Shown here: positions 862 through 36,897 of the stretch, piece by piece
How positions within the stretch are numbered: position 1 is the first letter of the stretch
Layout: each line of letters starts with the position of its first letter
Virus record (IMG/VR): IMGVR_UViG_3300032820_000024
Coordinates: 1 to 42,803 of that record
DNA: 42,803 nucleotides
Reading direction: 5' to 3' (one strand)
Source of the DNA: a virus
Translations under genes and position numbers: made by a program
The notes under the pieces: model-generated
What the model saw: only the letters and a program-made list of their open reading frames with translations
What the model was told of the DNA's origin: nothing
Databases searched by the model: none

Positions 862-878
862 ATATTTTTCCCTTTAAT

Positions 879-1781: not shown

Positions 1782-1822
1782 AATATATCTATTCCTTCAA
1801 AATTTAATTGTTATTATTTACC

Positions 1823-5176: not shown

Positions 5177-5214
5177 TTCCTTTTTCTCCTTAAATTATAT
5201 AATGTTTAGATTCA

Positions 5215-5554: not shown

Positions 5555-5567
5555 CCTCTATTCTCTA

Positions 5568-17046: not shown

Positions 17047-17063
17047 TTTATTTATTACTCCTA

Positions 17064-18881
17064 TCAATCTGCTGGGAATGTCGGTAAATTACTGTATTCT
17101 ACGAAATAAGTATTAGCTGTTGTTAAATTATTAGACGCAGAATCTTGTGCAGGATATAATTTTACACCATTAGCTGCATTTGTGATAGGTTTTTTACCCC
17201 ATTGAAGATGAAAATTAACCTTAGTTGTAGATTCAAATTCGCCACCATCGAAAATACTTGACTCAATATGATATATTAATCTATCCGCTTGTAATCCTCT
17301 ACTATTCAATTCTGCGTTAGTACCACTTATCGTAACATTAGAATCAGATGGATCTGACCCATCTTTATATTCTCCTGTTAAAGGATTTATAACCTTTTCC
17401 ATATTTGTAGAACTATAACTATCAAAATATGTGTACATTTCCTGTGCTGGAATATAAGAACCATCCTCGCGAACAATTCTTTCAAGTACAATTGTTATGG
17501 GAAATTCATGATTTTGGATATTCAATGGAGATGTGCGAAGATTAATGCCGGACACTTGTGGGATGAAAAATGGTAAATTAGCTGATGTCGCACGAACCGT
17601 AGAAGAAACTCCCACTCCAGACGAATCTAGCGGATCCCAAGATGTTGAATATCCAGATCCCCCACCTAAATCATATACACCAGATGCACCAATTAAAGCT
17701 ATATCAGAACAATCCTTTCGTAAAGTAAGTAATTCTGCTAAAGTTAATGTAGTATTATCTGCTTGATTCTTATAAAATATTATTCTATTAGGAACAAATT
17801 TTTTATAATCTGCATTACCACTACTTGATGCCAAAGCAGATGCTACAGGTTTATCAACCCAATAACTATTACTATCTATGCTAGTACCTGATACTGTATC
17901 AGAAACTTCTATCCTATAATATAATTCATCTATCTTATCATTTGCATCCATGCTAGCTTCTTCATACCCATCATCTCCATGTGGGATACTTAAATCAGGT
18001 ATAAAAACAAAATCAAAACTAGAACCAGTTGAATGAGCTTCAAGCATCTGTTTGGTATCAGCATAAGCAGTTCCAGAACTGTCATCCGTACCAGGCCAAA
18101 CATCATCTTTTTTCGTAACATCTCCATATGCACCTAACCAAAATCCATTTGCGCCAGGACAGCCACTATTCATCCATTTATCAAATATTGGGCCCTGACC
18201 TAATCTATGATTTTCTACAAAAACATCACCTATTGGACTATTTCCTGCAGTTTTAAACCAAAATTCCCATTTTTGAGGATGACCAAAATGTTCTTCATTA
18301 GTACCATTTATACCATGGCCAATAGAAGTCTGAGTAAATCCATACGTTAAGCCCCATTTGTCAGTTCCACTAGATACACTTTGAGTTGCATCAGTGGTTA
18401 ATTCACTAAAACTACCATCATCCTCATCCTGCTTTAATAAAGTAAGAGCATTAGATACTAAAACAAAATTTCCATATGTAGCTACACCATTAACGTCAAC
18501 ATCAGTATATATAGTTTGACCTGCAGGAAGATTACCTGAGTTAGTAACATATCTACCAGCATTTATTAATGTAGCTGATGCTTCTGCTCCAGCTGCATCA
18601 TTTGTTCCTATAATCTTATCATAAAATACCGATAAATCTAATTGGGCGTCATCAAAATCTCCCGCTGCAGCTGCACTACAAAATACAACTGCGGGGCCCC
18701 CTGCATATTTAAAATCAGGTTGTCCTGTCTGTCCAGATGCCACAAATCTTCCTGTCCAATCTCTTAATACTATAGCATATTTTTGTATTTGACCCCAATT
18801 ATGGGTGGCAGTAGGATCAGGATAATGATAAAGTACATCATTTACCAATGCCTGTAAATTTTCTGAAATTTGTATTGCCAT
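17064..18881 (-). CDS. unrecognised structural protein, 605 aa
   Basis: This 605-aa protein is rich in Asp, Ser, Gly and aromatic residues, and I do not recognise its family. Its N-terminus (MAIQISENLQALVNDVLYH) is helical; the rest looks beta-structured. A segment at about residues 365-372 (PNRIIFYKN) is echoed by PNKFIFYND in the adjacent 272-aa protein, so the two may share a domain. The start is ATG at 18881 with AAGGAG well placed upstream. It sits in the block of large virion proteins between the giant adhesin-like gene and gp8. A role in the fibre or baseplate periphery is inferred from context only. Confidence 0.6.
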   Translation of the reverse strand: MAIQISENLQALVNDVLYHYPDPTATHNWGQIQKYAIVLRDWTGRFVASGQTGQPDFKYAGGPAVVFCSAAAAGDFDDAQLDLSVFYDKIIGTNDAAGAEASATLINAGRYVTNSGNLPAGQTIYTDVDVNGVATYGNFVLVSNALTLLKQDEDDGSFSELTTDATQSVSSGTDKWGLTYGFTQTSIGHGINGTNEEHFGHPQKWEFWFKTAGNSPIGDVFVENHRLGQGPIFDKWMNSGCPGANGFWLGAYGDVTKKDDVWPGTDDSSGTAYADTKQMLEAHSTGSSFDFVFIPDLSIPHGDDGYEEASMDANDKIDELYYRIEVSDTVSGTSIDSNSYWVDKPVASALASSSGNADYKKFVPNRIIFYKNQADNTTLTLAELLTLRKDCSDIALIGASGVYDLGGGSGYSTSWDPLDSSGVGVSSTVRATSANLPFFIPQVSGINLRTSPLNIQNHEFPITIVLERIVREDGSYIPAQEMYTYFDSYSSTNMEKVINPLTGEYKDGSDPSDSNVTISGTNAELNSRGLQADRLIYHIESSIFDGGEFESTTKVNFHLQWGKKPITNAANGVKLYPAQDSASNNLTTANTYFVEYSNLPTFPAD

Positions 18882-18903: not shown

Positions 18904-19722
18904 CTATGTTACCTTATTTAATAAAGATGATACATATGTAAAAACCAATGAATCACCCGCTAGCCAATCTATTCCTTCTTCTGTCTGATCTGTTAAATCA
19001 CCCGAATCTATTAAAATATTTGTAGATGAGAACAATTTAAAATCCGTTGGAGTTAAGGGTAAATCATCAACACCCACTTCACAACTTATATTATTTATGT
19101 TACTTTGTAGTGCAGTCGTTACACTTATTCCCACAGTAGTAGTTTCTGTTCTTGTACCAAGTACAACTGGAGAGCCCGAACCCTCATCATTATAAAATAT
19201 AAATTTATTAGGAGTAATATCTGTCTGAGATGCGTTAGAATTAAATTTCCCTAATAAATTAGCAGGAGGCAATACATCACCCGTACCCGTTGATGGAGTA
19301 AATGTATATGTAAATGACTGTAAAAAATCATTATAATCATAATCAACTGAACCAGATTCCGATATAGTTTCCGTTGCAATATGTGTCCAATTAGTATGTG
19401 TTGTACCACTTGACACACTCACACCATAATAACTTGTATAACTAGCATTTAACAGACCCCATAATTTCATTTCATCAATAAATCCATCTGTCAGAGTTGC
19501 AGTTTGACCAAAATAATATTTAGGTTCATTAGGAGTACCACCATGAGTATATGTAAATACAAGTGCAGCAGATGGATTATCCAAAGTTATATCACAAGTT
19601 ATCTCAGAACTTTGAGTACCTTTATCTGTAAATAACTGAAACTTAGCCTGAAACATATGGTAAGTAGAACCATGTATAATAGATTCTCTGATTAAATTTG
19701 CGAAATCCTTTGATATTGCCAT
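18904..19722 (-). CDS. unrecognised structural protein, 272 aa
   Basis: This 272-aa protein is Thr/Ser/Asp/Tyr-rich and beta-looking with a helical N-terminus (MAISKDFANLIRESII). It shares the PN(R/K)xIFY motif with the 605-aa protein downstream and carries a C-terminal DWLAGDSLVFTY segment like the WxxGDxF modules elsewhere in this cluster. The ATG at 19722 has AAGG upstream and lies just after a perfect late promoter, so it is probably the first gene of its own late transcript. No named family is recognised. It is likely a virion protein of the fibre/baseplate periphery. Confidence 0.6.
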   Translation of the reverse strand: MAISKDFANLIRESIIHGSTYHMFQAKFQLFTDKGTQSSEITCDITLDNPSAALVFTYTHGGTPNEPKYYFGQTATLTDGFIDEMKLWGLLNASYTSYYGVSVSSGTTHTNWTHIATETISESGSVDYDYNDFLQSFTYTFTPSTGTGDVLPPANLLGKFNSNASQTDITPNKFIFYNDEGSGSPVVLGTRTETTTVGISVTTALQSNINNISCEVGVDDLPLTPTDFKLFSSTNILIDSGDLTDQTEEGIDWLAGDSLVFTYVSSLLNKVT

Positions 19723-19756: not shown

Positions 19757-22700
19757 TCAATACCAGTAAAAAACTCCACTCCCTGTAATGGTACCGCTTG
19801 AATACACTGCACCCTGCATCTTAATCGTCCAAGGTCTACTATACGAAATAGCAGATGGGCCTTGAATACCTCCTGTACCCGGCGCGTTAATAACAGCCCA
19901 CGCGTAATCGCCCGCATTTCCTACAGAAGCAGAAATAGGACTTCCTAGTCCAGTCCATACTGCAGTACCCCATTCCACCGTCCAAACATCATGATTCAAC
20001 GCCAATCCACCTACACCAATAGTTTGTGAATATCCTACACTAAATATCCCATATTCAGTACCGGCGCCAATTGGGTTGTTCTGGAGATAACGGTAATTGG
20101 TGTCAAAACCTGTAAGTACGGCGTAAAGTTTCGGTGGCCCAGGATAAGGTTCCCTAGCCAACCATCCTGCAGGTTTCCAAGCAGCTTCTATTGAAGTAGT
20201 ATTCTCATGTTTATTAGATTGTCTGTAAGACTTTGAAATTTTTACAAGTTCGTATACTGCAGCAGTTGGAGATCCAGTTCTGGTAGCATGAACTGCACCA
20301 CTAGCTATAGAAGTAGAAAGTACGTTAGTTCTAGGCCAAGCAGTAAATGAAGTTACATCCCAACCGGCCTCACCAGTAAATGAAAAGGCCAGAGAAGCAG
20401 TACTAGTTGTCCAATGATTCCCTGTGCTTCCATTCCATACCGCCAAAGTTGGTGGATTTATATCAGGCGGGGGATCAGTATCAACTGTACAAGTAACCGT
20501 ACTTGAAGAATTACTTGCATTATCTACTACTTTCCAAGTAAAAGTAGCTTCTCCATAATGGCCAACGCCAGGAGAATAAGTTGTAACTCCAGCGTTACTA
20601 GGAGTAGATACCGAACCAGCGGTAGGGCCTGATACAATAGTCCAAGTATGAACTTCGCCCGGATCAAGATCACTAGAATCAAGAGTAATAGCCAGCCCCT
20701 CACCATATCCTGTAGTAAGAGATTGAGCTGTAGCAATTGGAGTCCTATTCCCTACTGTACCAGTTGCGTAATTTGATGCAGTATTACCAAGGTTATCATA
20801 AGCAGTAACAATACTACCACCTATTGTAGCTCCAAAATCGTCATTCTCATCTACTGTAAGAGTAGAAACTTTATTTGTAGGTACTGCATGAGAATAATTA
20901 CCATCAACATCACCAGCAGTAAGTGTAGCAGTATAAGTACTACCTCTATACACTGTACCCCAATCGTGAGTACTGACGTTCGGATCATCCTCTACTGGAT
21001 CTACAGTAATATTCACAGTTCTTACTGAACTTTGTCTACTTCCCGTACTAACAGCTGACTTTACATAATACGAAAACCATGTATTTGTATGACTATTTGC
21101 ATACGGTTCAAATGTCAACTGCTTTTTGTCACCCGAAACTACAAACGTTCCGTATCCACCATGATTAGTCATATAACCATCTAAAGCTGCATCTTCCGAA
21201 TCTGGATCATTACCAGACAAATTAACTGTTTCGCTACTATCTTCATCCACAGAAAAATCATTAAGATTAGCAGTAGGATTGTCTGCTACAGGATCAACAG
21301 TTATATTTACTGTTGCAACATTACTATCTAAATTACCATCATTAACTTTATAAGTAAAAGAATCAGCTCCATTATAATCAAGAGTTGGTGTATATGTTAT
21401 GTTTTTAGTATTCGTGATATTACCAACAGAACCATGAGAAGGATCTGTTACTTTATGATAAGATACAGTAGATCCTTCCACTGGATCTGATCCATCCAAT
21501 ACAATAACTTTAGCTACATCTTCATTTGTACTAACTGTAACATCTTCTGCGACTGGAGCATCATTATCTGCGGTCACAGTAATAGAAACGGTAGCTGCAG
21601 TTGATACATTACCTGTTGTATCTTTAACCTTAAAAGTAAAAGAATCAGCTCCAAAATAATCAGCTACTGGTGTATATTTCACACCTCCAGCTCCAGTAAA
21701 ATCAGATAAACCTCCATGTAAAGGTGTAGAATGATCTTGAAAAGTAACTGAAGAACTTTCGACATCACTGCCTGTTAATGTTATATTTACAAAACTATCT
21801 TCAGCTACCGTTACAGCCTGTGCATCAGCAACTGGTGTATCATCCACCGCAGTTACAGTATATTTCATATATTTGTAAATAGTATCTCCACCAGAAACTG
21901 CTTTAATTCGTCCAATGTCAGCACTAGTAGAATTGAAATTAGCATTTGGTGTATAAGTCCATTGTCCAGTACCATTACCCACTAAAGTACCATTTGGTGG
22001 CTGAGCCACTATAGAATAGACAATACTTGTTCCATCAGGATCTGCGGCTCCCCTCTGAATTACATCACTTCCGTCTTCTTGTATAGTAACAGTATAATCG
22101 CCTGCTGTTAGCCATGCAACAGTATCTGCTACAGGATTAATTTGAATATATCCATTTGCGGCAGCCTCTAAACCACCCGCATCAGTAACTTTCCACCCAA
22201 AACTAATATTATCATTATTATCGGCAGCACCTTGATACTTCCAATGATTACTGTAGGCATTGCCCTGTTGAGCCCATATACTATAATGAGCTGGATTAGA
22301 AGTAATAGCATATGTCAAATTTGAAGTTTCCACGTCCGAAGCAATTAAATAAACATCTATTGTTTGATCTTCATCAACTGACGCTAAATAATTTCCACCC
22401 GACATCCCATACGTGGATGCTGTTGGAGTATCGTTGACTGAAGCCATAGTATAACTAAGAGTTTTAACTACAGAATTTACGCCATCTGAAACTTTATATG
22501 TCCAAGAATCAGTACCGTAATAATTTAAAGTTGGAATATAAGTAGCTATATGAGTATTAGCATCTATACTAGCAGTTCCATGATCAGGATCAGTCTCTTT
22601 AGTTACTGTCAATTCAGCATCAGTACTTTCTTCATCAGCTATTAAACTATCCAAATCAAATGTATGTGTTTGATCTTCAGTAAGAGTACTACCTGCAATA

Positions 22701-25700
22701 GGAAAAGATGCATCCTGTGCAGTAGGTGTTTCATTAACAGAGTCAAGATTAACTGTAATAGTTTTTACTAGTTTACTACTACCTTCTGCAAAAACTTTAC
22801 AAGTACCATACCAAGATCCATCAGAATTAGGTACAGCACTAATACTAAATGATCCACTTGCAGGAGCTGATGGATGAGTCAAAGTTGGATGTCCGTTCGC
22901 AGTTCCACCTCCAGCTCCAGCAAATCTAGTAAGTTGCTCTTCGATACCATATGTAATAGTATTGTCCGCATCAGTAGCAGTGATAGAAATAGAAGCCCCA
23001 GAATTTTCATTTCCCGAAACAGTATCACTAGATGGATAAGATTCCCATACTGTTGGATCTTCTACAGATGTACCGTTGAAATTAATTCTTGACTGATTCG
23101 ATTGAACGTCATTAATATCCGTAAAACTCCAATCCACATAAGTATTTGCATAATCATTATCAATATTTCTATTAAATGTCCAGTACAAACTTTTTCCTAA
23201 AGTTGCGTCTGGAATAGTCAAGGTAGAAGCTCCCCAATTAGAAGCATATGCATGTATTGTAACACTCTTAACATAATCACCATAAGGCCAATCAGGATCA
23301 TCCCCAGCTGCATTGAATGATATAGCAGTATCTTCAGTATAAGCCACAATCTGATCATCAGTAGTAGGAACATCAGCAGTTGCAGCGACAACAATAGTAA
23401 TAGTTTTATTTGCAGAATATCTATCATCTCCCGGCACTAATGGATCATCAACAGAACCATCTCCACTATCCAAAGCTCTATACGTTAATGTTTCCGTGCC
23501 ACTCCAATTTGCAGTGGCCGGTTGCCAATCAAATTTTTGGGAATAACTAGAATGAGTACCGCCATACCAAAGTGTCACATAACTTGAAGCTACCGTTGCT
23601 GAACTCCACTCATTATAAGTAGTACCATCTGGTTTAAGTCTCCGTATTTTAGATCCTGTAGGTATAGAGACAACTTGATACCAAAGATTATCATTTGTAT
23701 CTACATCCGATCCTCTATTAACTAGAGAAACAGAGAACCAATCATACTGATTTGAACCAGATTCATTATAGTTAGTAGTACCTGTCGTAGCATTACTAAG
23801 AGTAAAATCAGTTGCAACTGGTGCATCATTGACACCAGTAATAGTAATAGTAACAGTAGCTATTGAACTATCACTCGTTCCATCATTAACCTTATATGTA
23901 AAAGTATCAGTTGCAGTTTCTCTCTCAGTAGTTGGCTGGCCACCAGACCATCCCCCACCAACATATCCTAATGACTGAATACTAGGAGTATAGGTTACAC
24001 TTGAAGATGTAGTACCATAATTAGAAAGAGCTCCCTTAGTTGGCATATCAGTAATGTGATAGGTTAAAGTATTTCCTTCAACATCAGTTCCAACAAGAGT
24101 AATAGCAATACTCGCATCTTCCATTACAGCTATATTAGGTAGATTAGCAGCTTCAGGTGGATCATCAACTGGATTAACAGTAATAGTAACTGCTTGACAA
24201 TATTGTGCGCCAGCAACATCAGGATCAGGATCAGTATTAGTAGCTGTAGCTATACATAAATGAACTATTGCAGTACCGTTCCAATCTGGATTCCATGTTA
24301 TAGTATAAATAGGGCCATTATTAGTTACCGTACCTACAACATTCCATGAACCTGCTTGGCCAGGATTAGTCGCATCAACCACTATACCACCACTACCATA
24401 TCCAGCCCATTGCGATGTAGTTGGATTATCGACATCTGATCCACTATATGCAAACGTCCATACCTCATCCTCATTCACTGTTGCTGTAGTTGCTGAAGTA
24501 AATCCAGAACCAGCCTGTTCCCAATCATTACTCCATGCAAATGAATCATCTATGGGATTAACCGTAATAGATGCCGTTGCGTTTCCAGACCATGTAGCAT
24601 CCGTATCCTTAACCCTCCAAGTAAAACTAGCAGCACCATAATAATTAGGAGTTGGAGTGTATACAGTAGTTGTAGACATAGAACCAGAAGTAACTGATAA
24701 TGATCCATTTAAAGTAGTAGTACTTACTATCTCCCAACTATATAAATCATTATCAGGATCACTAGATCTAGCAGGAAGATCAAAATCAATAGTATATGTA
24801 CTATCTTCATTTAGTGAAAAAGAAAAATTATTAGCTACGGGTGGATCAGGCTGTGCAGCAACATTAATAGCTACCGTTGCAATATTACTATCTATTGTTC
24901 CATCGTTAGCCTTCCAAGTAAATGATGTACTACCATTATAATCCGCAGTAGGGGTAAAAGTAATAAGATTCTGATTACCGATAAGAGTACCATTTCCCAA
25001 TGCATAATTGTCAGATGTTCTTTTCAATGCACCATTTGCAGGTGCAGCAACAATTATATAATCTAAAGCATCACCATCAACATCTGTAGCCACTAATGTT
25101 ATATTAACTGCACTATCTTCATCAACAGTTACAACACTAGGGCCACCCTGAGACTGAGCAATAGGTGCATCATTAACTGGAGTAACTGTTATAGTGATAA
25201 CTCCTGTATTACTATTTAAAGATCCATCATTAGCTACAAAGGTAACGCTATCAGTTCCATGAAAATCTGGATCAGGAGTATATTCAATTTCCTTGTCGTC
25301 TACTAAATGAGCAGTAGTTAATGTACCATGACTAGGCTGACCATTAATCGTATATGTAAGAGTACTGTCATCGGTATCAACATCAGAAGCATACGTAGTA
25401 AGAGTAATAACGTTATCTGTACTATCTTCTGCCACAGTAACACCTTGGGCTGATGCAACTGGAGGATCATTAACTGGTATTATATTAATAGTAACTAATG
25501 CAGGATTAGTACTATAATATTGATTACCTGTCGTAGATTCTCGTGCTCTGAAGTTGAAAGTATCCGTATGATTTTCGGAATCATCGTGTTTATACCACAC
25601 TGGATTAGCCATCAATTGATATGCAGAATATGCATTTGTACCATTAGTTGCAGCTGTTTCTGAAGGATGCAATGATCCGTGTTGAGGAAGTACATCATGA

Positions 25701-28700
25701 AGATAAAATGTTAAAGGATTATTTTCTACATCTGTACCTGCCAAAGTTATTGACTTAACACCACCTTCTGAAGGTCTGTCACCCCCTAAAATTGTTTGTG
25801 GAGTTGCAATAGGCGGATCATTTATATCGTGAACCGCTAAAGTAATTGTAGCAACAACACTATCATTTGTTCCATCATTAACCTTGAACTTGATACTATC
25901 TGCACCATGATAATTCAAATCAGGTGTATATGTGATTATGCCATTATTAACAAAGGAAGCATTTGGTGTTAAACTTCCGTGTTCTGGATAATCAACACTA
26001 TTTTCTTCATCCACAATAATAAAAGTTATAGGACTATCCTCACCTTGTTTGTTAGGATGATCATGGCCTGTTAATGTTATTGGAAGTGCTACATCCTCAT
26101 TCGTACCCAAAGATTGAGATTCAGCAATAGGATGATCATTCACCGAAATAACATTAATAGTTACATTAGGAGTAGTTACGGTATTGACACCTGTGGCACC
26201 AGGAGTACCATCCGATGCTGACATTGTAAATGTGCCTGGGTTTCCAAAATAATCAGCAGGAGGAGTATATTTGTGAGTACCATTCCCGACCTCAGAACCA
26301 GTTGTTACAGCCACAACACCCGTGGTTGGCTGTGTGAAGGTATAAACTATAGGAGTACTTTCCGCATCAGTCGCCGTAAAAGTAAAGTAAGAAATAGTAT
26401 CTTCATAAAGTTCCAAAGCAGTAGGTGCTGCGGTAATAACTGGATCTGAATTAACACCTTGGATAGAAATATTAACCGTAACTTCATCAGACCATGCAGA
26501 TCCAATAGCTTGATCACGAACTCTCCATTTAAAAGAATCTGTCTGTGTCACACTGGAATCCGCCAATTGATGATTAATATCATCCCATTCATACACTGCT
26601 GTTGGCATATTAGCATCATTCCAACCTAACCCTGAAGGATTCCATGTCTTAGTATAGCTAGGGTTAGGAGCATCCGTAATTTCATATTCAAATTTAACAA
26701 TATCAAAAGCAGTAGAATCTGGATCAACAATATAATCAGCAAAGAGGAAAGTAAAACCAACTACTTCAGTACAAGCTATATTTATAGGACTAGCAGTAAA
26801 TGTAGGCATATCATCCAAAGGAAGAATAGTAACCGTACATACCTCAGTAATCTCAGGATTAGTAGAGTTTGTAGCTCTATAGGTAAAAGTGTCTGTGGTA
26901 CTTTGTGTATATTCTACATCATTAAGAGTGTATGTAATTCTCCAAGTCTCTGTTCCAGAAACAGGAGCAATAGTTGCCACACCCTTCGAGCCTTGAGTCT
27001 TTATACTATAAACAGGATCTTGACCAGTTAAAATATTACTACCAAGTACATCTGGATCAATTGCTTGTATATCTATTGTATTATAAGTAGCAGGTGCACC
27101 CGTTTGCTGTTCTTGAACTGACATTGTTGTGGGATGGGCAATCCACTCCATAGGATCATCAAACGGAGTTATTTGAAAACTGATTGTTTTCTGAGCAGAA
27201 ATTCTTCTGTTAGCAAGACCACCCGCTGTAGAAGTATCTGTATTTCCATTTGGATCTAAAAATGTTCCATCCCAGAGAAGATAAGTAGCAGAAGTAGAAA
27301 GTGTATTGTGTGGATAAGGAGTAAACGAATACTGAAAAACACCAGGCAAATTCCAATCTCCACCTGTCAGACCGATTGTTCCTCTGTTAGCAGGAGGCTC
27401 TGTAGTCCAGTATACTCTTAGATTTGATTCTTCGCCTGGGTCTACATCAACATGAGGTACAGTAAAATTAACAGAACCATCTTCGACTACAACAACTGTC
27501 AAATCATCTGCAACAGGAGCATCAGGAGTATTGAGTACATTAACCGTAACCGATGCTGCAGCTGAATTTAATGCACCATCATTTACAATATATGTAAAGG
27601 TATCTGTACCTACATAATTACTTTTGGATAGATAATTAACAAAACTACTCGCTGGATAATTTATACAACCACCAGATAATATACCTGCATTAGGCCCTGA
27701 AGGATGAGTATCTATAGAATAACTATAAGTTCCAGTTTCATTATATGCATCACTAAACGATAAATCAATCTGTGTAAGTTGATCTTCATTAACATTCGGA
27801 CTTAGAGCAATTGCTGTTGGAGCATCATTGACATTATTAAACAAATAACTACACTCAACAATACTAGACTTAGCATCAGCTAATAAAGAACCATTTAACG
27901 TTCTGTTTATATCAACTACTCGATATTTCCATGTTCCTGTTCCAAAATAATCAGTATCATCAGCATGTATTTCCACAACAGGAGAAGTTAAAAGAGCAGA
28001 ACCTTCTCCTACCGCCAATATATTTTCGTCCGTTGTATTAGTAAAATGTCCTACAACTGTTCCATTTTCAGTAGGATTCTGCATCAACTGATACCGTAAA
28101 TCATAAGCACCTGCAAATTCATTAGATGTTCCGACCATAGTATACGCAATATAACCACCCTCATCAGATACACCCCCTGTCAAAACAGTAGCCTGAGGTG
28201 AATCATACACAGAATCAACTTGAATTTGTATTTCTTTTTGTTCCGACCAAATAGAATTTGTTAATTCTCTAGCTTTATAATAAAATTTATCCGATCCATG
28301 CCAATGTGGATTAGGAGTATATTTATAACTTAAAGTGTTAGTAGAAAGAACAACAGTACCATATTCGGGAAACGACGCTCCCTGTATCGCACACATTATA
28401 GTATCCCCGTTTAAATCCTGTCCATTAGCATTTAAACCATCTATCAAAAATTCTTGATAACCAGTATCACTATCTTCATTTATCTGCTGTGAAAAATCAT
28501 TATTAACTTGAGGCGGAGTGTTTTTAACCCTCAACGTAAATTGTGAAGAAACATAACTAACAGTAGGATCAACACCCATTAATTTCACCGTAAAGGTAAA
28601 TACATCATCATCAAAATCTACAGGAGTATCAGCTAAAGGTTGATATGTAAAATATGGGCCAGTCTTTACTGGTGAAGTTTCCTGTGATGCCATATAATTC

Positions 28701-30418
28701 AATACTCCACTCGTAGGCTGTTCTGTTATAGCTACTGTTTCATAATCAGCTGCAGGTAGTCTAAACGACGCAGTAACATTCTTATCTATGTCTGGAACTA
28801 TATATGAACTAAACACTGGAGAATCCTGATCAGGAATAGATAAAACCAATGAACTAGCAAAACCTAAACTATTAAATGCATTTGCTGTTGATAAATATTG
28901 TCTTTCTCTATGACTAGTCTCCACGAAACAGGTAGACGTATTAGAGTCCATACTCAAACTAGTTTCTGGAGAAGTACCTATAACCGCATAATAAAAGGAA
29001 TCTACTTCTTTAGAGTTATTGTCTGGTCTATATGTTATTGTAGTACCAGCTATAGTATTATTTCCATCCAAACCAAGTATATCACCATGAGCTAATTGAC
29101 CCATTTGAGGAATTATTTTAATAGATTTGGTTTCGCCCACCTCGACTGAAGTATATGCATTCAAATTTATAACTAAGTCAGTACTATGAGGGCCAATAAA
29201 AACTGGATTCTCAGCATTACCTATATCATACGAAATTGGATTAGCTGAATTTGTATTTTGGATATTAGCCAATCCATTAAAAGACAACGTAGAAAAATTA
29301 GGATAGTCTGATAAATATTGTCTTGTGATATTATTTGTTTCAAAATATCGTTCAACCATACCATAAGAACTGGTAATGCTTGTTTCTATTAATGGTAAGT
29401 CTACATCAGATAAATCAGTATTGAATTGCTTCTCGACCATACCATAAGAACTAGTAATGCTTGTTTCTATTAATGATAAGTCTACATCAACCAAACCAGC
29501 TACATAAAGTTTTTCCGTCATACCATAAGAACTAGTAACACTAACAGAAACCATATCTATATCTACATCAGCTAGATCAGTATTGAATTGCTTCTCGACC
29601 ATGCCATAAGAACTAGTAATACTTGTTTCTATTAATGATAAGTCTACATCAACCAAACCAGCTACATAAAGTTTTTCCGTCATACCATAAGAACTAGTAA
29701 TGCTTGTTTCTATTAATGATAAGTCTACATCAACCAAACCAGCTACATAAAGTTTTTCTACCATACCATAGGTACTATTCATATCAATATAAACTATTGG
29801 TAAGTCTACATCAGCTAGATCAGTATTGAATTGCTTCTCGGCCATACCATAAGAACTAGTAACACTAGCGGAAACCATATCTATATCTACATCAGCTAGA
29901 TCAGTATTGAATTGCTTCTCGGCCATACCATAAGAACTAGTAACACTAGCGGAAACCATATCTATATCTACATCAGCTAGATCAGTATTGAATTGCTTCT
30001 CGACCATACCATAAGAACTAGTAACACTAACAGAAACCATATCTATATCTACATCAGCTAGATCAGTATTGAATTGCTTCTCGACCATACCATAAGAACT
30101 AGTAATGCTTGTTTCTATTAATGATAAGTCTACATCAGCTAGATCAGTATTGAATTGTTTCTCGACCATACCATAAGAACTAGTAACACTAACAGAAACC
30201 ATATCTATATCTACATCAACTAGATCAGTATTAAATTTCCTCTCTATCATAGAATAAGACTTTAAAATTTCACTGAAAATAGGTTCTATATCAATGTCTG
30301 GAGGAAAAACAAACTCAACAACAGTAAGATTTCCATCTCCCTGGCCTTCAAGCAGAGCTAGATTACCATCAACAAGGACATTAAGATCATTAATAGCTTT
30401 TATTTCTTTTGCTCTCAT
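19757..30418 (-). CDS. giant adhesin-like virion protein with 27-residue repeats and ~25 cadherin/Ig-like domains
   Basis: This is a 3553-aa protein. Residues 1-52 form a short N-terminal region. Residues 53 to about 360 are 11 full and one partial 27-residue repeats. Residues ~360-630 hold two related segments that each contain QYLS. Residues ~630-3316 hold about 25 tandem domains of ~107 residues. These have the hallmarks of bacterial cadherin-like/Big_9 adhesin domains: a VNDAPxA-type linker, an EDxx turn, a (H)GTL or HGSL segment, YTPxxxxxGxDSFTYKVNDG, and a final TVTxxVxxV strand. Residues ~3316-3553 are a unique C-terminal domain rich in Gly, Trp and Tyr. The ATG overlaps the previous stop (TAATG), so it is coupled to the gp7-position gene. 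It is probably a long flexible host-binding fibre; the binding target is unknown. Confidence 0.8.
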   Translation of the reverse strand: MRAKEIKAINDLNVLVDGNLALLEGQGDGNLTVVEFVFPPDIDIEPIFSEILKSYSMIERKFNTDLVDVDIDMVSVSVTSSYGMVEKQFNTDLADVDLSLIETSITSSYGMVEKQFNTDLADVDIDMVSVSVTSSYGMVEKQFNTDLADVDIDMVSASVTSSYGMAEKQFNTDLADVDIDMVSASVTSSYGMAEKQFNTDLADVDLPIVYIDMNSTYGMVEKLYVAGLVDVDLSLIETSITSSYGMTEKLYVAGLVDVDLSLIETSITSSYGMVEKQFNTDLADVDIDMVSVSVTSSYGMTEKLYVAGLVDVDLSLIETSITSSYGMVEKQFNTDLSDVDLPLIETSITSSYGMVERYFETNNITRQYLSDYPNFSTLSFNGLANIQNTNSANPISYDIGNAENPVFIGPHSTDLVINLNAYTSVEVGETKSIKIIPQMGQLAHGDILGLDGNNTIAGTTITYRPDNNSKEVDSFYYAVIGTSPETSLSMDSNTSTCFVETSHRERQYLSTANAFNSLGFASSLVLSIPDQDSPVFSSYIVPDIDKNVTASFRLPAADYETVAITEQPTSGVLNYMASQETSPVKTGPYFTYQPLADTPVDFDDDVFTFTVKLMGVDPTVSYVSSQFTLRVKNTPPQVNNDFSQQINEDSDTGYQEFLIDGLNANGQDLNGDTIMCAIQGASFPEYGTVVLSTNTLSYKYTPNPHWHGSDKFYYKARELTNSIWSEQKEIQIQVDSVYDSPQATVLTGGVSDEGGYIAYTMVGTSNEFAGAYDLRYQLMQNPTENGTVVGHFTNTTDENILAVGEGSALLTSPVVEIHADDTDYFGTGTWKYRVVDINRTLNGSLLADAKSSIVECSYLFNNVNDAPTAIALSPNVNEDQLTQIDLSFSDAYNETGTYSYSIDTHPSGPNAGILSGGCINYPASSFVNYLSKSNYVGTDTFTYIVNDGALNSAAASVTVNVLNTPDAPVADDLTVVVVEDGSVNFTVPHVDVDPGEESNLRVYWTTEPPANRGTIGLTGGDWNLPGVFQYSFTPYPHNTLSTSATYLLWDGTFLDPNGNTDTSTAGGLANRRISAQKTISFQITPFDDPMEWIAHPTTMSVQEQQTGAPATYNTIDIQAIDPDVLGSNILTGQDPVYSIKTQGSKGVATIAPVSGTETWRITYTLNDVEYTQSTTDTFTYRATNSTNPEITEVCTVTILPLDDMPTFTASPINIACTEVVGFTFLFADYIVDPDSTAFDIVKFEYEITDAPNPSYTKTWNPSGLGWNDANMPTAVYEWDDINHQLADSSVTQTDSFKWRVRDQAIGSAWSDEVTVNISIQGVNSDPVITAAPTALELYEDTISYFTFTATDAESTPIVYTFTQPTTGVVAVTTGSEVGNGTHKYTPPADYFGNPGTFTMSASDGTPGATGVNTVTTPNVTINVISVNDHPIAESQSLGTNEDVALPITLTGHDHPNKQGEDSPITFIIVDEENSVDYPEHGSLTPNASFVNNGIITYTPDLNYHGADSIKFKVNDGTNDSVVATITLAVHDINDPPIATPQTILGGDRPSEGGVKSITLAGTDVENNPLTFYLHDVLPQHGSLHPSETAATNGTNAYSAYQLMANPVWYKHDDSENHTDTFNFRARESTTGNQYYSTNPALVTINIIPVNDPPVASAQGVTVAEDSTDNVITLTTYASDVDTDDSTLTYTINGQPSHGTLTTAHLVDDKEIEYTPDPDFHGTDSVTFVANDGSLNSNTGVITITVTPVNDAPIAQSQGGPSVVTVDEDSAVNITLVATDVDGDALDYIIVAAPANGALKRTSDNYALGNGTLIGNQNLITFTPTADYNGSTSFTWKANDGTIDSNIATVAINVAAQPDPPVANNFSFSLNEDSTYTIDFDLPARSSDPDNDLYSWEIVSTTTLNGSLSVTSGSMSTTTVYTPTPNYYGAASFTWRVKDTDATWSGNATASITVNPIDDSFAWSNDWEQAGSGFTSATTATVNEDEVWTFAYSGSDVDNPTTSQWAGYGSGGIVVDATNPGQAGSWNVVGTVTNNGPIYTITWNPDWNGTAIVHLCIATATNTDPDPDVAGAQYCQAVTITVNPVDDPPEAANLPNIAVMEDASIAITLVGTDVEGNTLTYHITDMPTKGALSNYGTTSSSVTYTPSIQSLGYVGGGWSGGQPTTERETATDTFTYKVNDGTSDSSIATVTITITGVNDAPVATDFTLSNATTGTTNYNESGSNQYDWFSVSLVNRGSDVDTNDNLWYQVVSIPTGSKIRRLKPDGTTYNEWSSATVASSYVTLWYGGTHSSYSQKFDWQPATANWSGTETLTYRALDSGDGSVDDPLVPGDDRYSANKTITIVVAATADVPTTDDQIVAYTEDTAISFNAAGDDPDWPYGDYVKSVTIHAYASNWGASTLTIPDATLGKSLYWTFNRNIDNDYANTYVDWSFTDINDVQSNQSRINFNGTSVEDPTVWESYPSSDTVSGNENSGASISITATDADNTITYGIEEQLTRFAGAGGGTANGHPTLTHPSAPASGSFSISAVPNSDGSWYGTCKVFAEGSSKLVKTITVNLDSVNETPTAQDASFPIAGSTLTEDQTHTFDLDSLIADEESTDAELTVTKETDPDHGTASIDANTHIATYIPTLNYYGTDSWTYKVSDGVNSVVKTLSYTMASVNDTPTASTYGMSGGNYLASVDEDQTIDVYLIASDVETSNLTYAITSNPAHYSIWAQQGNAYSNHWKYQGAADNNDNISFGWKVTDAGGLEAAANGYIQINPVADTVAWLTAGDYTVTIQEDGSDVIQRGAADPDGTSIVYSIVAQPPNGTLVGNGTGQWTYTPNANFNSTSADIGRIKAVSGGDTIYKYMKYTVTAVDDTPVADAQAVTVAEDSFVNITLTGSDVESSSVTFQDHSTPLHGGLSDFTGAGGVKYTPVADYFGADSFTFKVKDTTGNVSTAATVSITVTADNDAPVAEDVTVSTNEDVAKVIVLDGSDPVEGSTVSYHKVTDPSHGSVGNITNTKNITYTPTLDYNGADSFTYKVNDGNLDSNVATVNITVDPVADNPTANLNDFSVDEDSSETVNLSGNDPDSEDAALDGYMTNHGGYGTFVVSGDKKQLTFEPYANSHTNTWFSYYVKSAVSTGSRQSSVRTVNITVDPVEDDPNVSTHDWGTVYRGSTYTATLTAGDVDGNYSHAVPTNKVSTLTVDENDDFGATIGGSIVTAYDNLGNTASNYATGTVGNRTPIATAQSLTTGYGEGLAITLDSSDLDPGEVHTWTIVSGPTAGSVSTPSNAGVTTYSPGVGHYGEATFTWKVVDNASNSSSTVTCTVDTDPPPDINPPTLAVWNGSTGNHWTTSTASLAFSFTGEAGWDVTSFTAWPRTNVLSTSIASGAVHATRTGSPTAAVYELVKISKSYRQSNKHENTTSIEAAWKPAGWLAREPYPGPPKLYAVLTGFDTNYRYLQNNPIGAGTEYGIFSVGYSQTIGVGGLALNHDVWTVEWGTAVWTGLGSPISASVGNAGDYAWAVINAPGTGGIQGPSAISYSRPWTIKMQGAVYSSGTITGSGVFYWY
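20480..28530 (-). repeat. array of about 25 cadherin/Ig-like domains in the giant protein
   Basis: By counting the linker pattern (VNDAP, VNDPP, VEDDP, VADTV and similar) followed by an acidic ED turn I find about 25 units over roughly 2690 residues. Copies are clearly homologous but diverged in sequence. Some keep the full VNDxPxA-xEDxx-HGTL-YTPxxxxxGxDSFTYKVxDG pattern; others, such as those with WESYPSSD or WIAHPTT, are degenerate. Such domains are typical of large bacterial surface adhesins and often bind calcium; in phage virions they are used as spacers or carbohydrate-binding decorations. Boundaries are approximate. Confidence 0.75.
29339..30262 (-). repeat. 81-bp tandem repeats, 11 full and one partial copy
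   Basis: On the minus strand, 81-bp units begin at 30262, 30181, 30100 and so on down to 29452, with a partial unit from 29371. Each encodes 27 residues of the form SSYGMVEKQFNTDLADVDxxxxxxSxT. Two versions of the first half (EKQFNTDLADVD or EKLYVAGLVDVD) and two of the second half (IDMVSVSVT or LSLIETSIT) combine in different ways, and unit 6 ends with LPIVYIDMN. DNA identity between same-version units is very high, so the array probably expanded or was homogenised recently. Confidence 0.9.
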
Positions 30419-32925
30419 TAAATCATCTCGCTTGGTGAAATACTGTAATTAATAGAATGAACTTTTCCTCTGTAAGTCGTAACAGGCGGAGTTAGATCAT
30501 GTGGTATGCTAGATGTAAAAATCGTAGATTCTGTATATGTTGAACCATTCATAAACCTATCACTATCTCCTAATCCTTCTCCGCCTAAATCCATAGCATC
30601 TTTTATCTCTGTAGTTTTAAATCCTATATTTCCTGTACCTTTTCCATTTCCTATTTGTCCTGGCTGATATTTATCACTAAAAATTACTAATCTCCCACCA
30701 GCACTACCAGAACTACTTCCTGTTCCTGATAAATCATAATCAGGTGAATCTTCATATTTATGAAGTTGACCATCTCCTGACTTTACACTGTCTGCAGATA
30801 TTTCTTCATAGCCAAATCCGTCAGACATATCAATTTCAATAGTATTAAAATTATATATACTGTCATTACTAGCGGGTAAAGAAAGTAAACTAAAATCAGG
30901 ATCATCACTAAATTCAATAGTTTCATAATTAGCTATATTAATAGCTTCTGGTTCAGAAACAATTTCGGACAAATCTTCAGTAAATTCTTCTGTATATAAT
31001 AATCCACCCGTACTGACTGTTTCTGATACATCTACTTCTGCTACATCTAACCTAGAAATAAATGCATTAAAAAATAACTTAGAGAAACTGTCATCATAAA
31101 GAGGAACAGAAGAAGTAAGAGCAGGAGAAACCAGATTAATATTAGGATTAGAAATTAATGATAATTGAGGTATAGTAAAACCATCACCTATACCACCAGC
31201 ACCCCAAATAACAGGATCATATTCTACCTGCTGAGCTGCAAAAACTTCAAACGTTACATTTTCTATTTCAGCCTGCTCTATACCAAGTTGAGCAAGATAA
31301 TATTGTTTTGGATCGGTGAGGCTTAAATCAAAAGGGGAGCTTACGTAATCCTCCCTACCAAATAGTTCCATTCCAGCCGGATGTACCAATTTCTTAATAG
31401 GATGTTTCCATACAGACATAGAAGTTTCAGAAAAAATCTCATAGCTAAATTCTTGATAGTAATTACTGTCTCGTAATTTTGCCTCACCGTCAAGTGTATT
31501 TAACATAGATTTATAATATTCTTCTTTGCCTGTAGTTCTCCATAAACCATCACCTATATCTATAGAACCTACTTTAATTGTATATAAACTATTTTGAGTA
31601 TAGTCATATCCCATTTCCTTAATTTTAATTTCTCCTATTTTTCCTAGACCTGTTATCGCGACCACATGATAAACATTATTATCTAAAATATAACCATATG
31701 GATTAAACTTATAATTTTTTCCTTTATTTATAACAGTTTTTGTAACTCCATTATTTTCTACTTTCACAACTGCACTCATATCACAAGCACTATACAATCT
31801 ACCTAACCTAACATTCCCGATTAAGACACCAGCATAACTATAAATATCTACCAGTTCAGATCCACCCTTCTTGTCTACATGATAATCAGTCAAAAAACTA
31901 CCATTTATATTCTCTACCCAAAACCTTTTCTGACTATCCACATCCCTAACAATGCCAGTAGCTCCACTCCGCTGTCCAACAATTCTATATTCAATCCCAT
32001 CAAGGTCTAATTCATAAGTGGTAAAATAATCATTTACAAATGTAATATAACCATTTTCAGTAGTAGTAATTGTAGCTTCATCCATCGTCATAGACTTCAT
32101 TTTATCTATAACTAGAGATGAACCAAATTGTTGTGCGTTTGGTAGATTCTCAATTTTTATCTTATCAGATGGATATATACCCGATACATCAGCTAAATCA
32201 ACATCACCCAATCCAGGCATTACTGTTAATGAAGTAGTACCAACACCTGTAACAGTACCAGGCTGGAATTCTCCAATTACAAAATCTCTCAATATCAATT
32301 TATAATAAGCTTTATCTACATCTCCATATATAACGTGTCTAGTATAAGAATCTAATATTCCCGAAGCCCCATTTCCTGAAATAGTATTACCAACACTTTC
32401 AGCTAGCAATGTACTCAATCCTGCTGTTTCTTCCACTCTAATAAAATCGTATTTTACCCATTCATTTTCAGACAACTTTAAAACTTTATCAAAAGGATAA
32501 GAAATATTAATTACCTGATCATACAATAAAGTAAACAGAAAACGAAACGAATTTTCATTACCTTTATTCTCATAGAAATTTTTCATCAACTTCATATTAC
32601 TTCTAATAGAATCTAAGGTAGGTGCATTAACACCATTCATATATTCACTGACAAAATTGGAAACCAATCCTACCGTAGTAGTATCAATATCTCTCAGCTT
32701 CTTCATAGAAAGAAGCTGATGATAAATCTCACCTCTTTCAGAATTTAATGATCTTACAGTTTCATTCTGAACCAATTCTATACTAACATTTTTCAAATCA
32801 TTAACAGAAACATCATATGATTCTGCTAAAAATCTATAATAAGAATCCAAGAATGTAGAAAACTGAACATCATCATCTCTAATAAAAGAAGGTATTTGCT
32901 GTTCTATAATACTAGTTATTGACAT
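30418..32925 (-). CDS. baseplate/tail structural protein at the gp7 position
   Basis: This is an 835-aa protein. Its first ~170 residues match the start of a conserved structural protein of marine T4-like phages: IPSFIRDDD, then FLDSYYRFL, a D-x-x-x-x-x-x-x-x-FVSEY segment, FYENKGNENSFRFLFTLLY and ISYPFDKVLKLSENEW. It sits directly after gp6, where T4 has gp7 (1032 aa). Gp7 identity is suggested by gene order only. The C-terminal quarter (about residues 620-760) is acidic and Ser/Gly-rich. The ATG at 32925 has AAGGAG upstream, and its stop overlaps the giant gene's start, so the two are probably made together. It likely forms part of the wedge or links the giant protein to it. Confidence 0.65.
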   Translation of the reverse strand: MSITSIIEQQIPSFIRDDDVQFSTFLDSYYRFLAESYDVSVNDLKNVSIELVQNETVRSLNSERGEIYHQLLSMKKLRDIDTTTVGLVSNFVSEYMNGVNAPTLDSIRSNMKLMKNFYENKGNENSFRFLFTLLYDQVINISYPFDKVLKLSENEWVKYDFIRVEETAGLSTLLAESVGNTISGNGASGILDSYTRHVIYGDVDKAYYKLILRDFVIGEFQPGTVTGVGTTSLTVMPGLGDVDLADVSGIYPSDKIKIENLPNAQQFGSSLVIDKMKSMTMDEATITTTENGYITFVNDYFTTYELDLDGIEYRIVGQRSGATGIVRDVDSQKRFWVENINGSFLTDYHVDKKGGSELVDIYSYAGVLIGNVRLGRLYSACDMSAVVKVENNGVTKTVINKGKNYKFNPYGYILDNNVYHVVAITGLGKIGEIKIKEMGYDYTQNSLYTIKVGSIDIGDGLWRTTGKEEYYKSMLNTLDGEAKLRDSNYYQEFSYEIFSETSMSVWKHPIKKLVHPAGMELFGREDYVSSPFDLSLTDPKQYYLAQLGIEQAEIENVTFEVFAAQQVEYDPVIWGAGGIGDGFTIPQLSLISNPNINLVSPALTSSVPLYDDSFSKLFFNAFISRLDVAEVDVSETVSTGGLLYTEEFTEDLSEIVSEPEAINIANYETIEFSDDPDFSLLSLPASNDSIYNFNTIEIDMSDGFGYEEISADSVKSGDGQLHKYEDSPDYDLSGTGSSSGSAGGRLVIFSDKYQPGQIGNGKGTGNIGFKTTEIKDAMDLGGEGLGDSDRFMNGSTYTESTIFTSSIPHDLTPPVTTYRGKVHSINYSISPSEMI

Positions 32926-32930
32926 ATCTT

Positions 32931-34622
32931 TCAGCTCCTTACCATTTTAACATCTATCTGGTCTACGTTCAATAAAGTTCCAAAATACGGAGCAATGTCT
33001 ACTCTATCTACCTCAGCATAAACCTTAATATCTGCTGTACCATTTATGTTTATAGGATTGATAGATACCTTACCACCTGTAATAGTTCCGTGTGATGTAG
33101 AAACTGTAACTCCAGATGAATCCACCAAAATTATATCAGTTCCAGAACTCTTAAATGAAACAGACTGTGTTCCATCTACCAATTGAAATTCACTAGATAC
33201 AAGCCCTTCTATAGCTGTATTAAATTGTAAATCCCAACTATCTTCTAATGTAGAATTTCCATTAGGATTAATTTTCTTATATAATTTCAACGTAGTATAA
33301 TTACTAACAATAGACGTATCAGTATCATCAATCAAAGCAACGAATGGAGTGTATTGAAATTCACCTTCAAAATTATTCAACACTGTATCTCCATAATTCT
33401 TAATAGAATTTATTACATTTTCTTTAATAGCACCATCTGTAATAACATTTAATTTAGAATCATATATCACTACTGAATCAATATCAATATATACATATTC
33501 TGGATCTACTATTTCTGGTGTAATTCCGATTGCTTTATTAGTAGACAAAACTGAAAGGAGATTTGATTTATCAGTATCAGTCAACGCTTCACCTGTTATA
33601 GGCTGACAGCACATAAACACTTTTCCATACATCGGAGGATCGTTATCTTCTCCGCCCCATACAATTGAAGATTTGACATTAGAACTTTTTGTCTGAACCA
33701 TGACCTTGAAATCGTCCAAAGTAACAGCTCTGTTCTGAGCTTGGAAATTCTTAGGAGCCAAGAACCTAATAGAATCATCTGTCTGTGGCCCTGATCCCCC
33801 TGTTGCATTAGACGTTACTGGTCTACTAGTAATGGTCTGATTCTCAGAAGAAAGCTCATTAATACCATTCGGGCCTGATCCAGAAGAAAGAGAATACTCA
33901 CAAGTAATTATAGATCCATCCGAAAGTTTATTTCCCCATGTTCCATCTCCAAAAGCAACTTCAAATTGACCACTAGAAGTTTCCTGTAAAAAATAAGTAG
34001 TGCTGGTAGAATTTAATTCTGAAATATCTGTGAATAAATTATAAGGTACATCAGCAGAAACCGTATCTGGTTTTACATTGACTGTCAGTGTAGTAGTATC
34101 CGCGTTTTCATCCAATAGAAATTTCTGATCTAAGTTATTGGTATCCTTGACATATGATTTTGTAGTTATTTTTCCCTCTTTACAAACAATACCTTCTATA
34201 TTATTATTTCCATCTTTCGTATAAGTTGTAATAGGATAAAATTTATATTCAGTACCATCATCTCCATATCCAATAAATTCATCATTAGAAGTTATTGGAG
34301 CAGCATTAGTACTAGTAATATCAAATGTAATACTAGCAGACCTAGAAGATGAAGGTGTATATCCCAGATGTTTCGCGATAGAAACAATAGACTCTCGTTT
34401 AGACGCACTATCCAAAAACATTTCATTAGCTAACATATTCACATAGTACCCCATATAATGGGTATTGTACGCTAATACATCTAATAGACTAGACAACGCA
34501 GATCCTTCATAGTTATAAGAACCATCGCTCCCAAAGTTAGGATCTTCTTTAAGAAAACTTATCAAATTATTCTTAATACCATCAAAATCTAATTCAGCAA
34601 CTCGTAATTTTTTTACTGCCAT
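32931..34622 (-). CDS. 6: baseplate wedge protein gp6
   Basis: This 563-aa protein is a clear gp6 (baseplate J-like) family member. The N-terminal region (about residues 1-105) has the conserved pattern LxFLKEDPNFxxxxYxGSALSSLLDVLAYNTHYMGYYVNMLANEMFLDSAxxRxSIVSIAKHLGYTPxSxRSA, here given as separate matched blocks. A second conserved block near 280-300 includes RFLAPKNFQAQNRAVTLDDF. T4 gp6 is 660 aa. Gp6 dimers form the inner ring of the baseplate and hold neighbouring wedges together. The start codon overlaps the gp25 stop (TAATG), as expected for coupled translation of interacting wedge proteins. Confidence 0.93.
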   Translation of the reverse strand: MAVKKLRVAELDFDGIKNNLISFLKEDPNFGSDGSYNYEGSALSSLLDVLAYNTHYMGYYVNMLANEMFLDSASKRESIVSIAKHLGYTPSSSRSASITFDITSTNAAPITSNDEFIGYGDDGTEYKFYPITTYTKDGNNNIEGIVCKEGKITTKSYVKDTNNLDQKFLLDENADTTTLTVNVKPDTVSADVPYNLFTDISELNSTSTTYFLQETSSGQFEVAFGDGTWGNKLSDGSIITCEYSLSSGSGPNGINELSSENQTITSRPVTSNATGGSGPQTDDSIRFLAPKNFQAQNRAVTLDDFKVMVQTKSSNVKSSIVWGGEDNDPPMYGKVFMCCQPITGEALTDTDKSNLLSVLSTNKAIGITPEIVDPEYVYIDIDSVVIYDSKLNVITDGAIKENVINSIKNYGDTVLNNFEGEFQYTPFVALIDDTDTSIVSNYTTLKLYKKINPNGNSTLEDSWDLQFNTAIEGLVSSEFQLVDGTQSVSFKSSGTDIILVDSSGVTVSTSHGTITGGKVSINPININGTADIKVYAEVDRVDIAPYFGTLLNVDQIDVKMVRS

Positions 34623-35038
34623 TATCTTTTCCTCTCCATCAAAAAGTTTAATTCTTGTACGGCCACTGGCTCTGGACTATTCTGTAATCTATACACAAGA
34701 GTAATATCATATTGATTTTTATCTTCCTCTGGAATAGCAACCGCCCCGACCAAATCTACTCTAGGTTCGTATCTTTTTACCACTGTTTCTATAGCCTTCT
34801 CAATCAGTTTAGCTGTTACACCATTCATAGGTTCAAACAAATATTGCTGAACACCCGACACAATCTCAGGATGGAATGGTTTTTCGTCAGTCCGTAACAT
34901 AATAAGATTAACCAAACTTTGCTGTATTGAAATCTCATCGGATACAGTAACAACATCCTTACTAAATGGATGTGGCTGTAAAGAGTTCATTATATCAACA
35001 TACTTTCTTATAGAAGGATTTACCAATGGTGATTTCAT
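34622..35038 (-). CDS. 25: baseplate wedge protein gp25
   Basis: This 138-aa protein matches the gp25/GPW family in length (T4 gp25 is 132 aa) and motifs. It has QSLVNLIMLRTDEKPFHPEI in residues ~40-60, then a YLFEPMN block and an alternating YEPRVDLVGA strand near 109-118. Gp25 sits on the inner baseplate next to gp6 and gp53 and helps nucleate sheath polymerisation. The ATG at 35038 has AGGAG upstream. Gp6 follows with a one-base stop/start overlap. Confidence 0.93.
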   Translation of the reverse strand: MKSPLVNPSIRKYVDIMNSLQPHPFSKDVVTVSDEISIQQSLVNLIMLRTDEKPFHPEIVSGVQQYLFEPMNGVTAKLIEKAIETVVKRYEPRVDLVGAVAIPEEDKNQYDITLVYRLQNSPEPVAVQELNFLMERKR

Positions 35039-35711: not shown

Positions 35712-36897
35712 ATTTCAATTCCAATGCTCCTAATCGTGAACCTATCTCAGATTCTAAGTCATTCCATTTATCTAATTCTTCTTCAGCAGTTTGTAGGGAT
35801 GTTTCTAATTGTCTGAGGGCTACAAGATTTTCAGACAAAAGACTAGCTCCATCCGAAAGTGCTTCGGTAGGTACATTTATACCTGACGCCAAAATTCCAA
35901 AAGGAATATTATTCAAAATTCCTGGCATAGGAGCAGGTACTCCTAATATCCCAAGTGGCCCAGTTAATACAGGAATTTGAGATGTTGGCAATGCACTAGT
36001 GACTGACATACTACCTGTTCTAACATGACTTCCAGTGATAATAGTACCATCTCCAGCTGTAACAATACCATCTACAGCCAAATTACCATTAACAAACACA
36101 GTAGGAGCAGTAATAGTAACAGCTCCCTCGCTAGTAATAGATATTTCATCATCTGAATTTATCTCCAATGATCCTGATTTTTCTGTTCGTCCACCCGTTA
36201 CAGTACTGACAACATTGCCACCCACTGTAACATTCATATCTTCGTCTATATTAATATATTTATCTTTTCCGACTATTTCAAGATTATTACCCACTACCTT
36301 TACCGTCATATCACCGTCTTGATCAACTTCACTGTATGTACCAGATCTATGAGTAACAGAAATACTTTCACTGCCTGGAGTATCATTGAACTCTACCAAG
36401 TGACCACTTTCCGACTCCGAAACATGATTATACGGATATACTCTGGTGATGTTACTATCATCACGGAGAGTGTTATCTGTAATACCTCTAGCTAGTTTAG
36501 TAGTGTTTACTTCCCCTAATACTGGTTCAGTACCTGTGGGTTTCTCTGGTTTGAAAGAATTAGTTTCAGGATCACTAAACCCTTTATGAGAATTATTCTG
36601 TGTCACATAACCAGCATCTATCATATGAGTCATTATCGGTTCTTGTGCACTTTCACCATCGCGAAAGAATCCCATTACCCATGTACCCTCTTTAAAGTTA
36701 GGTATACTGCCGGGAGTAGAATCTAATGGCATAGCAGGATAAGCCCATGGTAGAGAATCGGTTGGAATTTTCGTCTTTTCTTCTGTATGAAATCCCAGAA
36801 TCCTAACCCTAGCACGACCCAATTCTAACGGATCTTGACGATCCTCAACAACACCCTGCCACCAGACATAACCTGATAGGCCCATAAAGTTCTGCAT
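35698..36897 (-). CDS. 5: baseplate hub spike gp5, without lysozyme domain
   Basis: This ~399-aa protein starts with an OB-fold typical of gp5 (residues ~8-95: YVWWQGVVEDRQDP, GRARVRILGFH, LPWAYPAMP, GTWVMGFFRDG, EPIMTHMIDAGY). It continues into a glycine/acidic beta-helix-like region (~190-300) with repeating hydrophobic/Asp strands. T4 gp5 (575 aa) has a lysozyme between these parts; here it is absent, as in many marine T4-like phages. The C-terminus (~350-399) becomes a coiled coil. The ATG at 36897 overlaps the previous stop (TAATG); a GTG at 36909 would add four residues. Gp5 forms the trimeric needle under the hub that pierces the outer membrane. Confidence 0.9.
   Translation of the reverse strand: MQNFMGLSGYVWWQGVVEDRQDPLELGRARVRILGFHTEEKTKIPTDSLPWAYPAMPLDSTPGSIPNFKEGTWVMGFFRDGESAQEPIMTHMIDAGYVTQNNSHKGFSDPETNSFKPEKPTGTEPVLGEVNTTKLARGITDNTLRDDSNITRVYPYNHVSESESGHLVEFNDTPGSESISVTHRSGTYSEVDQDGDMTVKVVGNNLEIVGKDKYINIDEDMNVTVGGNVVSTVTGGRTEKSGSLEINSDDEISITSEGAVTITAPTVFVNGNLAVDGIVTAGDGTIITGSHVRTGSMSVTSALPTSQIPVLTGPLGILGVPAPMPGILNNIPFGILASGINVPTEALSDGASLLSENLVALRQLETSLQTAEEELDKWNDLESEIGSRLGALELKYGIE

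Follow-up and report, generated by a model that had tools for sequence, protein, structure and literature searches.

What does a bacteriophage gain from a 3,553-residue protein that consists largely of cadherin/Ig-like domains and is encoded among its baseplate genes? The window that we analysed is a stretch of 42,803 nucleotides (IMG/VR virus record IMGVR_UViG_3300032820_000024, positions 1 to 42,803), and it comes from a T4-like phage that is probably marine. The giant gene is a single open reading frame at 19757-30418 on the minus strand, which starts with ATG and runs through 3,553 codons without a stop; the plus strand of the same interval contains many stops. Thus, the initial annotation was right to treat it as one gene, and the strand has to be added. 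The encoded protein has a mass of 380 kDa and a pI of 4.05. We found no near-identical DNA in GenBank phages, no sequence match to the whole protein in the PDB and no visible signal peptide. We propose that this single chain forms an extender fibre that is associated with the baseplate and ends in a C-terminal adhesin tip, and we give this reading a probability of about 0.6.

The gene content of the window is that of a T4-like baseplate module of the Kyanoviridae type. PHROG matches give the order tail-tube cap (gp48), gp53, hub, gp5, gp25, gp6, gp7, the giant gene, three unknown genes, gp8 and a DUF4815/VrlC-like gene, which includes the gp25-gp6-gp7 ... gp8-VrlC succession of such operons. 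On the minus strand, a gp25-like wedge gene (34622-35038; phrog_261, 9e-37) and the gp6 wedge gene (32931-34622; phrog_219, 1.1e-128) are followed by the gp7-position wedge gene (30418-32925; phrog_17744, 1.2e-33; PF23786, 3.8e-13). The start of the giant gene overlaps the stop of gp7 as TAATG, one base inside the gp7 end. Promoter-like sites were no more frequent than in shuffled sequence, and so we claim no separate promoter. The gene had been placed between the gp7-position and gp8-like genes; it does adjoin gp7, but three structural genes separate it from the gp8-like wedge gene (10809-12047, minus strand; phrog_438, 2.4e-40), which marks the far end of the slot. These encode unknown proteins of 272 aa (18904-19722), 605 aa (17064-18881) and 1672 aa (12049-17067, structural-type), all on the minus strand, and we assign them to the same cassette as the giant. 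The 272-aa and 605-aa proteins share a short, weak similarity (PNKFIFYND / PNRIIFYKN) and are perhaps paralogous virion proteins; a collection scan returned no relatives of the 272-aa protein. The DUF4815/VrlC-like virion protein (5568-10799, minus strand; PF16075, 1.8e-38; phrog_358, 1.2e-101) aligns to the VrlC gene of HTVC008M. At the C-terminus of this 1743-aa protein (5589-5813, minus strand) is a sub-threshold Big_9 match (16 bits, E 7.4e-4). Between gp5 and a tail protein gene, a 323-aa protein (36897-37868, minus strand) contains the P-loop-like motif GGAGSGKG and has a kinase/zeta-toxin-like look; it matches phrog_5268, a family of unknown function.

The same slot varies among relatives. 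The nearest GenBank relatives of gp6 are Kyanoviridae, namely the pelagiphages HTVC008M and Mosig and the methylophage Melnitz, followed by cyanophages. In HTVC008M, and in those of contigs L026-L031 that are long enough, gp8 comes straight after gp7 and the slot is empty. In Mosig and Melnitz the genes in the slot carry the annotation tail fibre or wedge subunit, and their products open with ANDGTGDxLRxGxxKINxNFxEIY, a start typical of tail fibres. The nearest relative is contig L020, with 97% identity in gp25 and 92% in gp6. Its gp7 (4056-5981, compared with 30418-32925 here) is mosaic: identity is 73-93% over residues 1-120, 32-50% over residues 121-480 and 75% over residues 481-540, and there is no meaningful similarity beyond residue 540. 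Thus, the variable zone starts just before the giant gene. In two further contigs, L022 and L023 (gp7 43%), the contig breaks off within the gene right after gp7, but its start is present (L022 6314-6766 and the end of L023) and again consists of a short head followed by tandem repeats (NHSIAGFRLSSFTTYSQSNF...). Similarity between the head of the giant and this L022 gene was not significant (shuffle P 0.21). Pelagimyophage baseplate operons are reported to carry putative receptor-binding proteins with YHYH, concanavalin A, YadA and other domains (PMC7029224). Taken together, the slot contents, the mosaic gp7, the L022 and L023 genes and the pelagimyophage operons point to a host-recognition cassette that begins inside gp7.

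The giant protein has the four-part layout described for it at the outset: a head (residues 1-52), repeats (53-362), an Ig-like stalk (377-3311) and a unique C-terminus (3312-3553). The head (30263-30418, minus strand), which we propose as the baseplate attachment, has no relatives in phages or in IMG/VR by a pattern scan for close relatives, and its single-sequence model has a pLDDT mostly under 60. The repeat array (29333-30262, minus strand) amounts to 11.5 copies, 11 complete and one partial, of a 27-aa unit with the consensus SSYGMVEKQFNTDLADVDIDMVSVSVT. At the DNA level the repeats are equally clear, with an 81-bp period, 10.7 copies and 78-89% identity between shifted copies. Alternative halves of the unit (QFNTDLADVD / LYVAGLVDVD and IDMVSVSVT / LSLIETSIT) are mixed among the copies, a pattern that growth and recombination of the array would be expected to produce. 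In a single-sequence AlphaFold2 model each repeat has two beta strands, with a pLDDT of about 70-82 over much of the array; a fold search with the N-terminal model gave no confident structural relative. PHROG matches to the giant (phrog_2915 and small PHROGs) were weak and confined to these repeats, and no profile of a known tail-fibre family matched across the protein.

Next in the chain is a beta-rich linker (residues 377-635; 28514-29290, minus strand), which probably comprises two diverged Ig-like modules, given a weak Big_9 match (0.012) and the spacing. The stalk proper (residues 636-3310; 20489-28513, minus strand) contains 20 strongly and one weakly detected cadherin/Ig-like domains, with diverged modules in the gaps. 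The Pfam families Big_9 (E 2.5e-140, 458 bits against a cut-off of 23.6, 17 stretches), Cadherin_4 (E 6.4e-111, 363 bits against 25.1, 20 stretches) and Cadherin_5 (E 6.4e-72, 238 bits against 26.5, 12 stretches) all match, as does the NCBIfam tandem-95 model (tand_rpt_95; E 2e-140, 457 bits against 90). With multiple copies above the curated score, the protein belongs to the tandem-95 / Big_9 / Cadherin_5 repeat proteins. Cadherin_3, which had been suggested for a search together with Big_9, also scored above its curated cut-off (E 1e-16). A profile built from the giant itself found 20 domains at i-E <= 7.2e-18 and two weak ones. The domains are separated in places by gaps of 73-243 aa, which could accommodate about 5-6 diverged modules that Pfam recognises weakly or not at all. 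Because 22 domains are detected and these gaps could hold 5-6 more, the earlier count of about 25 domains was right; we estimate about 27 modules in residues 377-3311, those beyond the 22 from spacing.

The initial annotation had staked its proposal on a predicted Ig/cadherin fold, and this fold is predicted for one stalk domain. When the last stalk domain (residues 3226-3310) was modelled with its sister domains as the alignment, the pLDDT was 88-97. In VIA-align 2 the best match was a phage Ig domain, from the collar of Milano (Z 11.3, 1.7 A, 84 residues); next came cadherin-like domains of SraP, a staphylococcal adhesin (Z 9.8), and then classical cadherins with a Z of about 9. This one domain is thus predicted to be a cadherin/Ig beta-sandwich (Z 9-11, about 1.7-2.6 A over 84-94 residues), and the remainder of the stalk is assigned to the fold by profile membership. 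Big_9/cadherin-like domains also occur in enzymes and structural collars, and therefore the fold alone does not prove adhesion.

The unique C-terminal region (residues 3312-3553, 242 aa; 19760-20485, minus strand) had no homologues in IMG/VR, GTDB genomes, PHROGs or Pfam; the IMG/VR, GTDB and phage collection scans used short back-translated patterns, which find close relatives only. Its model has beta strands throughout, with a pLDDT mostly under 60, and we draw no conclusion on its fold. As the model is of low confidence, it is position in the chain that leads us to propose this region as a receptor-binding tip.

A string of Ig-like domains with a distinct C-terminal domain also recalls Hoc. 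Like T4 Hoc, the giant could decorate the capsid or collar: its C-terminal domain would fix it to the head, and the Ig string would loosely hold the phage near cells or surfaces. Hoc-like proteins of T4-like phages have this serial arrangement, and a paper on T4 Hoc counts that of phage Muldoon, with 1,174 aa and 10 Ig domains, among the largest (PMC10385173). The best fold match of our stalk domain, to a phage collar Ig domain, would fit as well. However, the giant is three times longer than the Muldoon protein, its gene lies in the baseplate operon and not by head genes, and its stalk belongs to another subfamily, as Big_9/tandem-95 domains are scarcely matched by T4 Hoc. In addition, its C-terminus has no PHROG match and no sequence similarity to the C-domain of T4 Hoc (best BLASTP E 0.10 over 13 residues outside that domain, a test of sequence only), and it is predicted to be all-beta, whereas the Hoc C-domain is alpha/beta. 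The giant is thus not Hoc by sequence, and we consider it unlikely that it works like Hoc.

We regard as similarly improbable that the giant is a scaffold of an enlarged baseplate, which braces the periphery and does not bind a receptor. Here it would be the separate-gene counterpart of the very large virion proteins that other Kyanoviridae encode at the gp7 position of the same operon (Syn1_094, 3,274 aa; S-SCSM1 gp015, 4,120 aa). In Syn1 and S-SCSM1, long insertions and C-terminal extensions surround conserved gp7 motifs; in the window, gp7 is short and the giant is separate, joined to it by the TAATG overlap. The cyanophage proteins differ in that they are fused with gp7 motifs, contain other domains (YHYH in Syn1) and no Big_9, and show no sequence homology to the giant. 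A string of cadherin domains would also make a poor compact scaffold.

The view that the protein resembles bacterial large adhesins more than tail fibres holds at the level of the stalk domains. Bacterial tandem-95 / Big_9 / Cadherin_4-5 proteins share its domain families, its tandem units of about 100 aa and 28-44% identity over stalk segments. These matches are in genome contigs of Deltaproteobacteria, Brevibacillus, Planctomycetota and Patescibacteria, with arrays of 10-11 domains in contigs L067 and L068. Beyond the stalk the resemblance fails: the giant sits in a phage baseplate operon, has its own N-terminal repeats and C-terminus, and shows no RTX motif, visible signal peptide or relatives of its tip. 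Large RTX adhesins of the MpAFP type likewise use a long chain of Ig-like extenders with acidic calcium-type motifs to project a terminal binding domain. They have about 120 modules, compared with about 27 here, and the giant is phage-borne with no RTX, T1SS or retention module recognised. As neither RTX nonapeptide repeats nor a C-terminal secretion module gave a Pfam or NCBIfam match at E <= 1, we rejected an RTX/T1SS large adhesin of the MpAFP or LapA type. That the giant is a non-virion glue, set free when the cell lyses or exposed on the infected cell to keep new hosts or debris near the progeny, akin to the 'sibling capture' that has been considered for curli genes of phages (PMC7029224), would suit its domain-level resemblance to proteins of bacterial genomes, but is very improbable given a gene embedded and overlapping in a structural operon and a product with no visible signal peptide, RTX or sorting module.

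Our model remains the baseplate-associated extender fibre. Host tethering, the function first suggested, is also the likeliest one; the baseplate context, the cadherin/Ig stalk and the succession of repeats, stalk and tip are likewise supported. We propose that the head and the beta-repeat section attach to the outer part of the baseplate, with gp7, whose gene overlaps that of the giant, as the likeliest partner. From there, about 27 cadherin-like domains in series would form a thin stalk, and the unique C-terminal domain at its far end would bind a host surface molecule. The stalk is probably stiffened by calcium at the domain junctions. Cadherins bind calcium at these junctions through an E near the domain start, a DxD motif and a DxNDN linker. 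Among the 22 detected stalk domains, the E motif was found in 20, D-x-D/E in 21 and an ND.P-type linker in 14; coming from loose patterns without a shuffled control, these counts indicate compatibility with calcium dependence and are not proof of it. The stalk is also acidic, with a net charge of -259, and the C-terminal 242 residues are near neutral. In MpAFP of Marinomonas, calcium binding stiffens Ig-like repeats of about 45 A each, and the chain serves as an extender (PMC4083281). This parallel, the best-studied one, predicts a stiff rod, if calcium is bound, in place of the flexible fibre first imagined. At about 4.5 nm per module, a stalk of about 27 modules would be roughly 110-120 nm long, which is close to the length of the long tail fibre of T4, 1440 A or 144 nm (PMC3004832).

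In T4-like phages, a tail fibre is normally a trimeric rod of beta structure. If the single-chain stalk is real, phages can build reach in the manner of bacterial giant adhesins: the number of domains would determine the length, and calcium in the water possibly the stiffness. A bolder and less probable reading is that the phage took up a bacterial-type giant cadherin-like adhesin stalk as a calcium-switched baseplate tether of roughly 120 nm, a class distinct from trimeric tail fibres, tailspikes and Hoc. For host capture in dilute water, the giant offers a concrete candidate that can be cloned. It also strengthens the case that these phages have, upstream of the VrlC-gp14 island already described, a host-recognition cassette in the gp7-gp8 slot.

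How rare is such a protein? A literature search, mostly without subscription journals, found no earlier description of one. Ig folds are common in phages, and tblastn is insensitive to remote Ig domains, so the following counts measure the rarity of this subfamily and not of Ig folds. Among 50,697 GenBank phage records, tblastn with the central stalk found none and with the distal stalk found one, phage C48C1, in keeping with the claim that the protein is exceptional for a phage. Whole-genome counts with the Big_9 profile were 0 in HTVC008M, Mosig, Syn1 and S-SCSM1, 1 in Melnitz, 3 in C48C1 and 15 above cut-off here. The C48C1 protein (Kyanoviridae; CDS0131, 933 aa) has three Big_9 domains and lies near other large genes. 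It differs from the giant in its small size, its unrelated N- and C-terminal parts and its location, which is followed by a gp5-like gene and is not in the gp7-gp8 slot. Reverse searches with domains of C48C1 and of the IMG/VR contig L010 found only C48C1 among phages. Contigs L010-L019, which matched the distal stalk/C-terminal query in IMG/VR, were rejected as sources of orthologues, as the likeness is at the domain level only. L010 (4307-17461) encodes a 4,385-aa phage protein with GH25 lysozyme, fn3, YOMG_N, three Big_9/Cadherin_5 and about nine LysM domains. L011-L019 encode proteins with one Big_9-type domain or two, and the gene that precedes the one in L011 has a crAss-type muzzle C-terminal domain.
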